Below, in pieces: positions 42,989 through 48,615 of a stretch of DNA of 64,000 nt; the stretch's first letter is position 1; the number at the start of each line of letters is the position of its first letter. This stretch comes from Deltaproteobacteria bacterium (GTDB lineage: Bacteria; Desulfobacterota; Desulfobacteria; Desulfobacterales; B30-G6), in NCBI GenBank assembly GCA_022340465.1, contig JAJDNW010000106.1:1-64000 (forward strand), in the 5' to 3' direction. Under the pieces are notes generated by a model, which saw only the letters and a list, made by a program, of their open reading frames with translations, was not told the origin of the DNA and searched no databases. A program made the translations under genes and the position numbers.

Positions 42989-43633
42989 TTATTTGTGGGC
43001 CTTTTCCCACTCCTCGATCATGACGCCCTCCTCGACGCCTTCCCAGCCGGTGATCATCGCCTTGATGTGGGCGGAAAGGCTGTGGCCGGTGGTGGTCATA
43101 TAGACGTGCACGACGATAAAGGTCAGGATATTGAATGCACCGAACATGTGCAGGATGCCGATCCATTTGAGAGACAAAAATTCAACCCCCCACGCAGGCC
43201 AATGGTTGTACCCCCAATAGAGAAAACCGGTAATCATCTGAAACGGCAGAAGGAATGCCGCCAAAGACAGATACACGAGACGCTGAAGCGGGTTGTGTTT
43301 GGCCTCCTTGCGCTTGGGGAAGGGATGCGACTCCCCCCTGAATATGCCATAACCGTAATAACGGATCACGGAGAACATTTTCCTGGTGGTGGGGATGTAC
43401 TGCTTCCACTCACCGGTGGTGAAAACCCAGAAAACGAAAAAGGCAAAGGCGATCAACCAGCTCAACCCCACGGTATTGTGGACCTCGACGGCCGTTTCAA
43501 ATCCCATGAACCGGATAAGACCGTGAACCTCGAAACCGGTTATCAGCAGGATGATGATAAAGGCCATCTGCAACCAGTGCCAGAAGCGTTCATAACGCGT
43601 ATAAAGGTATGTATTAACCAACTTGCCCTCCAT
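42989..43633 (-). CDS. membrane cytochrome b subunit (FdnI/hydrogenase cytochrome b-like)
   Basis: A 214-residue di-heme b-type cytochrome with four helices, of the formate-dehydrogenase/Ni-Fe-hydrogenase gamma type. Candidate heme ligands are the histidines in RFWHWLQMAF, AVEVHNTVG, GILHMFGAF and FIVVHVYMTTTGHS. It would exchange electrons between the quinone pool and the octaheme cytochrome. The ATG has GGAGGGAAGTGAG upstream, 4 bases after the octaheme gene stop, so it is co-translated. It is the last gene before a terminator. Confidence 0.88.
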   Translation of the reverse strand: MEGKLVNTYLYTRYERFWHWLQMAFIIILLITGFEVHGLIRFMGFETAVEVHNTVGLSWLIAFAFFVFWVFTTGEWKQYIPTTRKMFSVIRYYGYGIFRGESHPFPKRKEAKHNPLQRLVYLSLAAFLLPFQMITGFLYWGYNHWPAWGVEFLSLKWIGILHMFGAFNILTFIVVHVYMTTTGHSLSAHIKAMITGWEGVEEGVMIEEWEKAHK

Positions 43634-43637
43634 GATC

Positions 43638-45272
43638 TCACTTCCCTCCTTTTTTTCCACCGTTGCTGCTGGAGAATACCCTTCCCAGGCCATGCAGGGT
43701 CACGGCGATCAGCGCACCGACGACCATGACCCAGCCCAATGCGTCCAGCATTCCCCAGTGGTCGCGTCCGGGCATGTAAAATCCACTCATGCCGGCCAGC
43801 CGGCTCCCTTCGCGAATGTGGCACTCCCTGCAATTGACCACATTTTCCTTGGGCGCCACCATGTGGGTCGTCGGAAAGACATAGGTGGTGTGTACGAAAT
43901 CGAACTCGCCTGAAAACGGCAGATCCAGAGCCTTGGAGCCCAGGGCGAGAGCCTTTTGCCAGTCGAGGTGCTTCCAATAGCCGTTAGGGCCTGATAAAAG
44001 CGGAGCCAGCAGCGTTTTGTTTACCTTGTCATAGGGTTGAACACCCCGGTGGACCTTGAAGGGGAAAATGCGTGCGTTCCGGTCGTGCATGTCGCCCAGA
44101 GGATAGCTCAAGGCAACCGTACCGGACGGATCGATGGTGTCGACGGCGGAGAGCGACCGGATGGAACCGTTGAACCAGAAATATTCCGGCTTTTGGTTCT
44201 TTTCCCATGTCATGCTTCCCTTGATGCTCATATAATCATGCTTCCCGTAGGGCCCCTCGGTTTTGTATGGCTTACCGTCCCTGGTTTTACCCGACGTCGA
44301 CCAGTCCCAGAACATTTTGGTGGGATTGACCCTTGCAAACGTCGGTATGTGGCAGCTTTGACAGGCAACCTTGTCCGTATGGTCGTTGGCTTTGGAGCCG
44401 GCCTGGTGCGGTGTGCTGCTGTGGCAGGACTCGCAAGTGATCTTGGACGTGAGGTCGTCCTCGATCAGGCTTTTGCGGTCCGTATAGGCCGGCACCGTAT
44501 AAATACGCCCGGAGATGTTGTGCTGCCGGGTCGTGTGACAGCGCACGCAGCTGAAATTCTGCCCGTCCAGCCCCATGTGCACATCCAGCGCCTTGTTGGG
44601 CTTGCTCATGGACGAATCGAGATCGCCGTGCTTGACGCCGTCACCGCCGCCGCCATTGAAATGGCAGGACCCGCAGTTCTGCCGCCCCGGGCGAACCACG
44701 CTCTGCACGGCCAATTGTATTTCGGCCTGCAGTTCGTCCGCCATCTCTTTCAGGTCGGGGTCGTTTTCGGCGTCCGCCATAAACGCGTTGTAATCCTCGA
44801 AAGATTCCTTCCAGTTGATCTTTTTGCTCCCATGACACACCAAACAGTTGGTGGCTTCCGCTTTCTTCCCCCAGCCCGGATGGCAGGACTGGCAGCCTTT
44901 GTCCTGCCCCATGTTGGTGGAAATGCAGAAATTGTTCAGAGAATAGGCGGCCTTGCCCATCTGAACGCCGTCTTCATCTTTACCGCCTTTCCAGGTCCAG
45001 TGGATGGTTTTGTGGAACTGGGTTTCCGCTTCCGAATGACAGGAAACGCAGGCTTTGGTGACCTGCGGCCCAGATGAAAATGTCTGCTTCAACACCTCGT
45101 GTTTGCTGTGATCGGTGGTGATCCACGGCGTGGTGTCCCTGGTGGCCTGCTGGGCCATGGTACGCCCCGGCGCCTGATCCTCCCCGAAAACCGGGGAGAC
45201 CAGGCAAAGGACGGCCCACATCGATAGAACCGCCGTGAAGACACCGGCGACATTGTGGTTGAGTCGTTGCAT
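43638..45272 (-). CDS. octaheme cytochrome c, tetrathionate-reductase (OTR) family
   Basis: A 544-residue exported multiheme protein with exactly eight CxxCH sites: CVSCH, CQSCH, CLVCH, CGSCH, CVRCH, CESCH, CQSCH, CRECH. The layout and the segment NNFCISTNMGQDKGCQSCHPGW fit the octaheme tetrathionate reductase family known from Shewanella, whose members reduce tetrathionate, nitrite or hydroxylamine in vitro. An N-terminal signal (residues 1-30) and a C-terminal helix (WVMVVGALIAVTLHGLG) anchor it to the periplasmic face of the membrane. ATG 45272 has AAGAAGGGA six bases upstream. It sits between the rhodanese selenoprotein gene and the cytochrome b gene. Confidence 0.92.
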   Translation of the reverse strand: MQRLNHNVAGVFTAVLSMWAVLCLVSPVFGEDQAPGRTMAQQATRDTTPWITTDHSKHEVLKQTFSSGPQVTKACVSCHSEAETQFHKTIHWTWKGGKDEDGVQMGKAAYSLNNFCISTNMGQDKGCQSCHPGWGKKAEATNCLVCHGSKKINWKESFEDYNAFMADAENDPDLKEMADELQAEIQLAVQSVVRPGRQNCGSCHFNGGGGDGVKHGDLDSSMSKPNKALDVHMGLDGQNFSCVRCHTTRQHNISGRIYTVPAYTDRKSLIEDDLTSKITCESCHSSTPHQAGSKANDHTDKVACQSCHIPTFARVNPTKMFWDWSTSGKTRDGKPYKTEGPYGKHDYMSIKGSMTWEKNQKPEYFWFNGSIRSLSAVDTIDPSGTVALSYPLGDMHDRNARIFPFKVHRGVQPYDKVNKTLLAPLLSGPNGYWKHLDWQKALALGSKALDLPFSGEFDFVHTTYVFPTTHMVAPKENVVNCRECHIREGSRLAGMSGFYMPGRDHWGMLDALGWVMVVGALIAVTLHGLGRVFSSSNGGKKGGK

Positions 45273-45288
45273 AACCATTCCCTTCTTT

Positions 45289-46413
45289 TCAGGATGCAGG
45301 CTTTTTAATGGTGTACGTGCCATCCTTTTCAAAGGTTGTTTCCGCTTCCAGATAGTACACTTTTTTCAGCTCCGGACGCAGGTCCTGTAACATGTAATAA
45401 GCCTCGCCGCTTCTGGCGCCCGTGGCACAGACAAACACGATGGGCTTGTCCGCAGGCAGTGCGGCGACCTTTTTTTCAAGAAGATCCGTGGGCATGTTGA
45501 CCGCCGACGCGAAGTGCCCGCCGGCATATTCATCCGCGTCACGGACATCGACGAGCATGATGCTGTCTGGGTTTTCCTTGATGATTTTTTCGAAGGTGGC
45601 GATGTCGATGGTGCCTTCCTCGGCACCGGCCTGCACCTGAATTGCAGTGCCCGCCCCCATCTCCTTTTTCCACGCCGGATATCCGGCGGCAAACACCAAT
45701 ACGTTTTTATAACCGAGCGCGACCGCCCGCCGGGCGGAATTGTGGCTCAGCTTTCAGGTATAGCCGCCGCAGTAAAAGAGCAGGGGCACGTTTTTATCCT
45801 GAGGCAGAAGTCCCTGAAATTCATCGAACTTGCTGTCCGGGATGCTGATCGCCCCGGGGATGTGGCCCTTGTCGAACTTGGCCTTTTTCGGTCTGGAATC
45901 GATGACCATCACCGGTGCATCGCCGGTCAGCAGTTCCTTGACCACGACCGTTTCAACAGCGTAGTAGTTGCCGGAGGTGCTTTTCCACTTGGGAAACCCA
46001 TCGGCATACACCTTGACGTTGGTATAACCCAGTTTTTCCGCCTTCCAGGCGGATTTGTGACTCAGCTTTCAGGTGGGTCCCTGACAGTAAAAAATCAGCA
46101 GCGCTTCCCTGTTCTCCGGAAGATCGCCCTTCAATTCGTCAAACTTGCTCTCAGGAAGGCTGACGGCGGAGGGAATGTAACCCTTGTCGTACTTGGCCTT
46201 TCTGGGACGGGCATCGACGATCATCGTGTCGGCCGGCACCGGTACCTTGGCATACTGCTGAACGAATGCCGTGTCGACGATGGTATGAAACCTCCAGGAC
46301 GTGTCCACCGCCGCGGCCGTTTCGGGCCCCTTGGGCGCACCCGCACATCCAATGCCCAGCAGCAACAGGGCGGCCATGAGGGACAACACCCGGTTTCTGG
46401 TTCTTGTTGTCAT
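45289..46413 (-). CDS. three-domain rhodanese-like selenoprotein (two in-frame UGA read as selenocysteine)
   Basis: One frame of 374 codons interrupted only by UGA at codon 115 (46069-46071) and codon 220 (45754-45756). Domain 1 (about 30-145) has FYCQGPT-UGA-KLSHKSA, then LGYTNVKVYADGFPKW. Domain 2 (about 150-250) has FYCGGYT-UGA-KLSHNSA, then LGYKNVLVFAAGYPAW. Domain 3 (about 265-374) is a normal rhodanese with Cys329 in FVCATGARSG. Both UGA codons fall at the same place, five residues after a cysteine, and each is followed by a hairpin. An N-terminal lipoprotein-like signal (LLLLGIGC) puts it in the periplasm. AGGAGG precedes the ATG. Sulfur transfer or redox at C-x4-Sec is inferred. Reading it as a pseudogene is much less likely. 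Confidence 0.85.
45723..45737 (-). promoter_or_regulatory. SECIS-like hairpin for the second UGA
   Basis: Minus strand: 16 bases after the UGA at 45754-45756 comes CCGCCC, loop GGC, GGGCGG (or a 5-bp stem with a CGGCG loop). It sits at the same place as the first hairpin although the bases differ, so the structure rather than the sequence is kept. Confidence 0.7.
46037..46053 (-). promoter_or_regulatory. SECIS-like hairpin for the first UGA
   Basis: Minus strand: 15 bases after the UGA at 46069-46071 comes TCCGCC, loop TGGAA, GGCGGA, a perfect 6-bp stem with G at loop position 2. Distance and loop fit bacterial selenocysteine insertion elements, which lie inside the coding sequence just after the UGA. 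Confidence 0.7.
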
Positions 46414-46428
46414 GAAATCCTCCTTTGT

Positions 46429-46779
46429 TTAGTTACATTTTGCAGGCGTAGGTGAATCGGACGCATGCTCGTACATATGGGTAAAGATGTCCGCGAGGTC
46501 CTGTTCACTGGCGGCACTCCACTCCTCTTTGCAGCCGAATTCGCTGAAGTTCTTTTGGTTGAAAATGGCCTCCCATTCGGCCTGGGTGTGGTCATCCGGG
46601 TTGAGCCTGGGTTTGGGGGAATCTATCTCGCCCCGTTCATGACAGGCCTTCCAGACTTTGCGATAGAGGTATTTTCCTTTGCGTTTATTGCCTTTTTCCA
46701 TGGCCAAACCGGCGCTCACGAAACAGACGGAAAGCAGAACGGCTATAAAAATCAATACGATCTTGTTTTTCACTTTCAT
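46429..46779 (-). CDS. small exported cytochrome c-like protein with a one-cysteine heme motif
   Basis: A 116-residue secreted protein (signal MKVKNKIVLIFIAVLLSVCF, then VSAGLA). The mature start GNKRKGKYLYRKVWKACHER matches small monoheme cytochromes with GKxLYRKxCxxCH, but the first heme cysteine is tryptophan (WKACH, codon TGG). The C-terminal part, WEAIFNQKNFSEF to SEQDLADIFTHMYEHASDSP, is typical of the family. It could bind heme by one thioether, or not at all. First gene of the sigma-54 operon; TCCTCC-type ribosome binding site in front and 15 bases before the rhodanese gene. Confidence 0.75.
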   Translation of the reverse strand: MKVKNKIVLIFIAVLLSVCFVSAGLAMEKGNKRKGKYLYRKVWKACHERGEIDSPKPRLNPDDHTQAEWEAIFNQKNFSEFGCKEEWSAASEQDLADIFTHMYEHASDSPTPAKCN

Positions 46780-46840: not shown

Positions 46841-46855
46841 GCAACCTGTATGCCA
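46841..46855 (-). promoter_or_regulatory. sigma-54 promoter of the cytochrome/rhodanese operon
   Basis: Minus strand reads TGGCATACAGGTTGC: TGGCA at -24, TTGC at -12, with the correct 5-base gap after TGGCAT. It lies about 62 bases upstream of the first gene (start 46779) and faces a divergent sigma-54 activator gene. Confidence 0.82.
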
Positions 46856-47094: not shown

Positions 47095-47150
47095 TGTTAA
47101 CCCCAGGCATTATGTTTACATCTGTTAACCTTTTTAGATGCAATGTTAAC
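47095..47150. promoter_or_regulatory. three more TGTTAAC half-sites before the activator gene
   Basis: TGTTAAC at 47095-47101, 47123-47129 and 47144-47150, the last ending 13 bases before the activator start codon. All are on the same strand. Binding here could repress the activator's own gene. The rest of the 380-base divergent region (46780-47163) holds no other gene. Confidence 0.5.
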
Positions 47151-47163
47151 AAGGATACCTCCA

Positions 47164-48615
47164 ATGGACCTGTCAAAATACTGGAAAACCATCGTCGATA
47201 CCCTGCAGGATGGCGTCATGGTGGTCGATCCCAATGGCCTCATCATAGCGGTAAACCCGGCCGCCGAGCGCCTGACCGGCTATACGGCCAAGGAGCTGGT
47301 CGGACACTCCTGCCGCATGCTGGACTGTACCGGGTGCGAAATCTATGCACGGGGTCAGGCGGAAAAGTGGTGCGGTCTTTTTGCCAAAGGGGATGTCCGG
47401 GTCAAGGAGTGCTCGATTATCAACAGAGACAAGCGTTCGGTCAGCGTCATTAAAAACGCCACCATCCTCTACGACGAAAGTAACCGGGTTATCGGGGCCG
47501 TCGAGACCCTGACCGACATGTCCACCCTGGTTTCCCAGCAGTTCGAAATATCTCGACTGCGCCGGAGCCTGCACATGGACGATGGGTTTCACGGCTTGAT
47601 CGGCAAGTCACCCGTTATGCAGAACCTGTATGAACTTGTGGAAAACGTCGCCCAATCGGAAGCGCCCGTGATGATCAGTGGAGAGAGTGGAACGGGCAAG
47701 GAACTGGTTGCCCGCGCCATCCATGAAGCCAGCGATCGTAAAAAGATGCCGTTTATCAAGGTCAACTGTTCGGCGTTGAACGAAAACCTTTTGGAAAGCG
47801 AACTGTTCGGACATGTAAAAGGGGCATACACCGGCGCAGAAAAAGCCAGGGTGGGACGATTCGAGGCGGCCCACGGCGGCACTATTTTCCTGGATGAAAT
47901 CGGGGATATTTCGCCGGCCATCCAGGTCAAGCTATTGAGAATTCTGGAAGAAAGAGAAATCGAAAGGGTCGGTGACCACCAGCCCATCAAAGTGGATGTC
48001 CGGGTGGTGACGGCCACCAACAAAGACCTGGAGGCGTTGACTGAAAAGGGCCTGTTCCGCAACGACCTCTTTTTTCGCATCAACGTTTTCCCCATCCACT
48101 GTCCGTCGTTGAAAAAACGGGTTGAAGACATCCCCATGATCGTACAGCACTTCATTCGCATCAACAATGAAAAGAGTGGCAAGAAAATCCTGGGGATGAC
48201 GCCGGAAGCCATTGAAAAAATTACTGCTTATCCGTGGCCGGGCAATGTGCGCGAACTGCGCAATACCATCGAATATGCCTTTGTCCTTTGTCCCAGCGGA
48301 GGCATCGGCGTCAACCACCTGCCGGCCAAGATTGTCGGCGCCGAACCCGAGCGCATCGCCCCCCGGATGGACCGGGGACATCCGGCACAAGGGGCTCTGG
48401 CGGCCCATACACACCCGAACCCGGAACCTCCGGCGGAAAAACCGGCCATGAAAAAATCCGCTGCCGCTAAAAAAGAGGCCCTCATCGACGCGTTGCGTCA
48501 GACCCGCGGCAGACGCTCGGAAGCCGCCCAATTGCTGGGCGTGAGCCGGGTGACGGTCTGGAAGTGGATCCGGCGGTTCGGCATCGACCTTATCAACGAC
48601 CTTGCCGAAAAATAA
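47164..48615 (+). CDS. sigma-54-dependent activator, PAS-AAA+-Fis
   Basis: A 483-residue enhancer-binding protein. An N-terminal PAS domain (1-115) is unusually rich in cysteine (CRMLDCTGCEIY, KWCGLF, KECSI), suggesting metal, heme or thiol sensing. The AAA+ core has Walker A GESGTGKE (173-180), the sigma-54 contact loop GAYTGA (220-225) and Walker B GGTIFLDEIG. The C-terminal Fis-type helix-turn-helix is SEAAQLLGVSRVTVWKWIRR. ATG 47164 is preferred over an upstream ATG at 47143. It is divergent from the cytochrome/rhodanese operon, whose promoter is of sigma-54 type, so it is the likely activator. Confidence 0.93.
   Translation: MDLSKYWKTIVDTLQDGVMVVDPNGLIIAVNPAAERLTGYTAKELVGHSCRMLDCTGCEIYARGQAEKWCGLFAKGDVRVKECSIINRDKRSVSVIKNATILYDESNRVIGAVETLTDMSTLVSQQFEISRLRRSLHMDDGFHGLIGKSPVMQNLYELVENVAQSEAPVMISGESGTGKELVARAIHEASDRKKMPFIKVNCSALNENLLESELFGHVKGAYTGAEKARVGRFEAAHGGTIFLDEIGDISPAIQVKLLRILEEREIERVGDHQPIKVDVRVVTATNKDLEALTEKGLFRNDLFFRINVFPIHCPSLKKRVEDIPMIVQHFIRINNEKSGKKILGMTPEAIEKITAYPWPGNVRELRNTIEYAFVLCPSGGIGVNHLPAKIVGAEPERIAPRMDRGHPAQGALAAHTHPNPEPPAEKPAMKKSAAAKKEALIDALRQTRGRRSEAAQLLGVSRVTVWKWIRRFGIDLINDLAEK

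Follow-up and report, generated by a model that had tools for sequence, protein, structure and literature searches.

A triple-rhodanese protein with two predicted selenocysteine loops, encoded beside multiheme cytochromes in a deltaproteobacterium

In the DNA analysed here, a stretch of 64,000 nucleotides from contig JAJDNW010000106.1 of a deltaproteobacterial assembly (hereafter, the window), the minus strand between positions 46413 and 45289 carries a rhodanese-like gene with two in-frame UGA codons. An earlier note, made from the letters of the sequence, proposed that both codons specify selenocysteine (Sec) in a sulfurtransferase. The locus raises two questions: are the UGAs read as Sec or are they the marks of a broken gene, and in what kind of metabolism would the resulting protein take part?

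Reading frame and rhodanese domains

The selenorhodanese gene (45289-46413, minus strand), with the ribosome-binding site aaaggagg just 5' of it, consists of 374 codons and a terminal UGA (codon 375, 45291-45289) in a single frame, and contains two internal UGAs only, at codon 115 (46071-46069) and codon 220 (45756-45754). Read-through of these two codons confirms that the three open segments noticed earlier share one minus-strand frame. Standard gene calling had been expected to split such a gene and does so here, i.e. in the list of open reading frames it appears as three separate entries, 114, 85 and 136 aa long.

The read-through protein matches PF00581 in three stretches (162.7 bits, cut-off 22.2; 3.5e-48), which places it in the rhodanese superfamily. 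Sequence, Pfam and predicted structure delimit domain 1 (45970-46296, minus strand) with the loop C110-QGPT-U115 and domain 2 (45655-45966, minus strand) with the loop C215-GGYT-U220, where U denotes the UGA. The flanks of the two codons are near copies, as had been claimed (FYCQGPT-U-KLSHKSA in domain 1 and FYCGGYT-U-KLSHNSA in domain 2), and each UGA stands five residues past the loop Cys, giving C-x4-U spacing at both sites. Domain 3 (45298-45618, minus strand) has the ordinary Cys site that was ascribed to it, found within FVCATGARSG; in its loop, C329-ATGAR, C329 and G332 are invariant in the 64 aligned rows of relatives described below. The persulfide-forming loop Cys is kept in all or nearly all of these rows (C110 in 62 of 64, C215 and C329 in 64 of 64). 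An AlphaFold2 model built on the 64-row alignment reached a mean pLDDT of 89.3 and a pTM of 0.63, the domains being sure and their mutual arrangement less so, and its top Foldseek matches were rhodaneses, including the multi-domain EanB and YnjE. From these domains we infer a role as a sulfurtransferase.

A signal sequence leads to a candidate lipobox Cys23 (46345-46413, minus strand). The suggestion that the protein is a lipoprotein holds in part: the lipobox is atypical here (LGIGC), whereas LAGC, FGC or AGC stands at the equivalent place in relatives, several of which have a classical LAGC or VAGC.

Relatives, selenocysteine machinery and SECIS-like hairpins

Relatives were gathered by searching proteins at the level of the family, the order and the phylum, and by one scan of named genomes. 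Of 389 genomes taken from the order, 101 carry the rhodanese family, and 64 aligned rows were left once repeats had been removed. Three paralogues from the source genome (L003-L005) gave weak matches only and were placed outside the selenorhodanese family. The earlier note had proposed a check for Cys or U at the UGA columns in homologues; the columns of codon 115 (46069-46071, minus strand; predicted Sec 1) and codon 220 (45754-45756, minus strand; predicted Sec 2) are occupied by Cys or Sec, and by nothing else, in all 64 rows, and the relatives continue past both. Because 16 of the 64 rows have UGA at the two equivalent positions and the columns are restricted to Cys and Sec, the UGAs are not chance occurrences. 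On the 64-row tree the states at site 1/site 2 (U for Sec, C for Cys) were UU in 16 rows, UC in 12, CC in 35 and CU in one, with at least 13 state changes compared with 25.7 in shuffles (midpoint root; several forks unresolved), which implies repeated exchange between Sec and Cys. Purifying selection acts on all three segments delimited by the UGAs (omega was 0.08-0.25 where computable; raw pN/pS 0.17-0.26 where synonymous change was saturated). On the sequences compared, the predicted double-Sec triple-rhodanese is a conserved family and not a one-genome curiosity.

In the close family the mixed forms are without exception of the UC type, and the reverse combination, CU, was seen only in distant relatives (L084 and L094). 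Two relatives from one genus (AB_69_Bin_102), L025 and L040, carry a third in-frame UGA within DTS-UGA-KFH. It was rejected as a Sec site, the column being Trp (DTSW) in other relatives, and is likely to reflect a miscalled base, a fault of assembly or a genuine nonsense mutation.

The 4.39 Mb genome assembly was searched for the Sec machinery, as the earlier note had advised, and all four components were present, i.e. selA (516 bits), selB (375 bits, cut-off 242), tRNA-Sec or selC (75 bits, gathering threshold 47) and selD (386 bits). The selD gene (L021; G000:C13:29872-30798) itself has an in-frame UGA, and the selenophosphate synthetase of this genome is probably a selenoprotein too. SelA was found in 78 of the 80 genomes bearing the rhodanese family; it is no marker of the Sec forms as opposed to the Cys forms, Cys-only genomes carrying it as well.

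For the hairpin survey, the 42 nt 3' of each site were folded, with stem onset 15-16 nt past the UGA. In the window, SECIS-like stem-loop 1 (UCCGCCU GGA AGGCGGA; 46037-46053, minus strand) begins 15 nt 3' of its UGA and stem-loop 2 (CCGCCC GGC GGGCGG; 45722-45738, minus strand) begins 16 nt 3' of its own; both have GG in the apex, with folding energies of -16.1 kcal/mol (z -3.2) and -21.5 kcal/mol (z -2.0), respectively. The stretch past the terminal UGA gave -3.8 kcal/mol (z +1.1), and codon 375 was rejected as a third Sec for want of a hairpin 3' of it.

Across the family, 6.25 of the 7 stem pairs form on average at the 51 distinct Sec sites, as opposed to 4.0 of 7 at 88 Cys sites, and a GGA apex was present at 40 of the 51 Sec sites compared with 3 of 58 close Cys sites. 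Resampling of synonymous codons gave a mean z of -2.29 for Sec sites and -0.44 for Cys sites. Covariation over 50 distinct Sec sites was 0.298 as opposed to 0.101 when shuffled (0 of 500 shuffles were as high), sliding the stem partner by one column lowered pairing from 89% to below 48%, and one stem pair alone occurs as C-G, U-A, A-U and G-C. These features mark a conserved RNA hairpin and not codon choice. Folding z-scores and covariation thus agree with the earlier claim of a stable hairpin with G in its loop 15-16 nt after each UGA. Bacterial SECIS hairpins are short and variable. The SECIS search that had been called for came out divided, in that an Rfam scan of the region gave no SECIS family match whereas the dedicated hairpin alignment shows a covarying stem.

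It might be argued that the gene is degenerate, a former Cys protein with two nonsense mutations or assembly errors, and a single base does separate UGA from TGC/TGT. However, at least 16 loci share these UGAs, the codons beyond them are under purifying selection, the SECIS hairpins covary, and UGA recurs in many independently assembled genomes; degeneration is refuted by this conservation and is hardly credible. The double-selenocysteine rhodanese proposed at the outset is supported, the three grounds for abandoning it that were named beforehand (a genome lacking the machinery, homologues that stop or carry other residues at these columns, and TGC/TGT in place of TGA) having all failed. We consider it almost certain, judging from sequence, that the product of the gene is an exported selenoprotein with three rhodanese domains, probably anchored to lipid, into which SelB, tRNA-Sec and the two in-frame SECIS hairpins would insert Sec115 and Sec220.

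Two operon settings

Upstream of the rhodanese gene lies a small exported cytochrome c-like protein of 116 aa (46429-46779, minus strand) with a degraded heme motif. Directly downstream is an octaheme c-type cytochrome of the tetrathionate reductase (OTR) family (43638-45275, minus strand; TIGR04315 517 bits, cut-off 375; PDB 1sp3, 5e-105), and beyond it a cytochrome b561-type membrane subunit (42989-43693, minus strand; PF01292; NF011582 at 1.3e-30, below cut-off), for which the nearest type is thiosulfate reductase cytochrome b. These four genes, with a PAS/sigma-54 activator in divergent orientation (47143-48615, plus strand) that is conserved in this neighbourhood, make up operon A. A candidate sigma-54 -24/-12 promoter, TGGCAtacaggTTGC (46841-46855, minus strand), is near consensus with one mismatch and lies ahead of the operon; this pattern occurs across the window at chance level, and it is only the position of this copy that is suggestive. 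Operon A, defined by OTR downstream and then cytochrome b, was found in 12 of 20 enlarged loci, among UU, UC and CC forms alike. In L125, OTR is present and no cytochrome b match was found in its stretch.

Operon B, in which an octaheme cytochrome, a small cytochrome c and a PhsA/PsrA-like molybdoenzyme with its FeS subunit stand directly before the rhodanese, was found in 7 of the 20 enlarged loci and in the same-genus relative L040. The PsrA/PsrB-like genes of L040 lie upstream of its rhodanese, and the rhodanese is therefore the part common to both operon contexts. The operon-B molybdoenzyme scored 583 bits with the PhsA model, under the cut-off of 694, and matched PDB 2vpw (labelled thiosulfate reductase) over nearly its full length at 1.8e-114; in L135 it carries a Tat signal.

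The small cytochrome c-like protein has a full CRTCH motif in operon-B relatives, whereas the first heme Cys is lost here (WKACH/YKAC). Its other cysteines are conserved among the proteins compared (those of the window, L034, L036, L037, L039, L041 and L042), and it may be a cytochrome c that has no heme or holds it by one bond. Sec/Sec and Cys/Cys paralogues occur together in three genomes, G286 (L051/L117), G366 (L054/L118) and G356 (L048/L116); in each, the Sec copy adjoins PhsA/PsrA-like genes and the Cys copy has an operon-A setting. A selenium-responsive switch between such paralogues is possible.

Proposed role and comparison with known systems

As the full best explanation we propose that the protein is probably, judging from its domains and neighbours, a Sud-like periplasmic module that would handle sulfane sulfur in a thiosulfate, polysulfide or tetrathionate respiratory chain. 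Domain 3, with its ordinary CX4R loop, would give or take sulfane sulfur as the entry or exit transferase, and in domains 1 and 2 the persulfide would be carried on the loop Cys. Sec has a lower pKa than Cys, and the neighbouring Sec might attack the Cys persulfide, so that sulfide would be released or the sulfur passed on by way of a Cys-S-Se-Sec bond. Operon A would supply electrons from its cytochrome c-like, octaheme and cytochrome b partners for re-reduction of this bond; in operon B, alternatively, sulfur might be fed to the PhsA/PsrA-like molybdoenzyme. In sister lineages, Cys at the Sec position would do the same job. OTR-family cytochromes have only a tentative substrate assignment in vivo, and operon A could therefore serve another oxyanion.

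A bolder version makes the tandem Cys-x4-Sec rhodanese a selenium-dependent persulfide reductase that would receive quinol electrons through the octaheme cytochrome, the rhodanese itself being the terminal sulfur reductase and operon A working without a molybdenum enzyme; we hold this only tentatively and think it unlikely.

The loops of rhodaneses are made to hold persulfides, and we take Cys110 and Cys215, the partners of the two Sec residues, to occupy the canonical persulfide site of the fold. This, together with the specific linkage to sulfur-respiration operons, argues against thiol-disulfide or peroxide protection, in which the Cys-x4-Sec redox pairs would guard exported respiratory enzymes and sulfur transfer would be secondary. 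We regard protection as quite unlikely, even though the Sec column is invariantly Cys/Sec and the pairing of Cys with Sec is a typical trait of redox selenoproteins, a 2022 review expecting redox roles for most (PMC9312934).

The named relatives of the family belong to sulfate-reducer lineages, namely Desulfobacula and Desulfatirhabdium. An oxidative direction, in which electrons from sulfide or thiosulfate would pass through the cytochromes to the quinone pool, draws on the fact that multiheme cytochromes and PhsA/PsrA-like enzymes may run both ways, reverse action of Psr being allowed in the Nautilia paper (PMC2628731). The sequence itself decides nothing, the direction of sulfane-sulfur flow (reduction or oxidation) not being readable from it. 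In sulfate-reducer lineages a reductive role is more usual, and we consider the oxidative direction highly improbable.

For the sulfane-sulfur module proposed here, the nearest precedent is Sud, a periplasmic protein that presents polysulfide to PsrABC (PMC2628731). Sud of Wolinella (PDB 1qxn) is likewise exported, offers sulfane sulfur to a polysulfide reductase of the molybdoenzyme type, and matches domain 3 weakly in sequence; it is a chain of 137 residues in the PDB, whereas the window protein has three domains per chain, two of them with Sec loops. Gene linkage suggests that the window protein may be a Sud-like polysulfide carrier. OTR (PDB 1sp3) and PhsA/PsrA (PDB 2vpw) are counterparts of the operon A and B partners, which match them over nearly their full length, and not of the selenoprotein itself.

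Another system with a rhodanese lipoprotein encoded together with multiheme cytochromes is ExtH of Geobacter (NF040901), the porin gene extI of its cluster being needed for selenite reduction (PMC5877670, PMC6148476). By analogy, the window protein might be an ExtH-like part of a selenite- or tellurite-reducing electron conduit and not of sulfur respiration. Its relatives do match ExtH weakly in NCBIfam, but at 27 bits, far under the cut-off of 200, and ExtH membership was rejected with no match for the window protein; the neighbours also differ, being OTR, a thiosulfate-reductase-type cytochrome b and PhsA/PsrA-like enzymes, and Cys-only forms retain the same operon. We judge selenium or tellurium oxyanion handling to be very unlikely.

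Rhodanese selenoproteins as such are already known. A 2026 review (PMC13188914) gives five forms (UxxS, UxxG, CxU, UxxG, and TsoB UxxxxU with two Sec) and also includes, from the tetrathionate reductase family, one octaheme cytochrome that contains Sec. The first four resemble the window protein in being rhodaneses with Sec but have a single Sec and other motifs; membership in rhodanese_LYCAU (NF041203, CxU) was rejected at 71.7 bits with a cut-off of 115, the window motif being C-x4-U. The nearest known kind is TsoB (NF045694), likewise a double selenoprotein with an x4-spaced rhodanese loop; among NCBIfam models, it is the rhodanese portion of TsoB that matches domains 1 and 2 best. TsoB is rhodanese/DsbD fusion-like (572-position model) and has both Sec in one UxxxxU motif plus a DsbD-like part, whereas the window protein has one Sec in each of two tandem loops, keeps the Cys at the persulfide position, has a third, CX4R domain and is without the DsbD part. 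TsoB membership was rejected at 116 bits (cut-off 805), in two partial stretches and with CxxxxU instead of UxxxxU.

For the window protein, no NCBIfam model reached its cut-off, and a literature search of incomplete coverage for CXXXXU or CX4U rhodaneses found none, an earlier mention being possible. Two tandem C-x4-U loops are absent from NCBIfam and from the 2026 review. Five distant rhodaneses of about 460-490 residues (L091, L092, L095, L096 and L097) carry one C-x4-U loop each, and a comparable hairpin goes with it; two of these distant single-loop proteins were scored with NCBIfam and reached no selenoprotein model.

With gene calling that splits the gene and no NCBIfam model at cut-off, the family is probably misannotated in many Desulfobacterota genomes. 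Its natural Cys/Cys, Sec/Cys and Sec/Sec versions in the same operon offer a ready set for gauging the benefit of selenium in sulfane-sulfur chemistry, and the operon linkage ties the use of selenium to thiosulfate, polysulfide or tetrathionate respiration.
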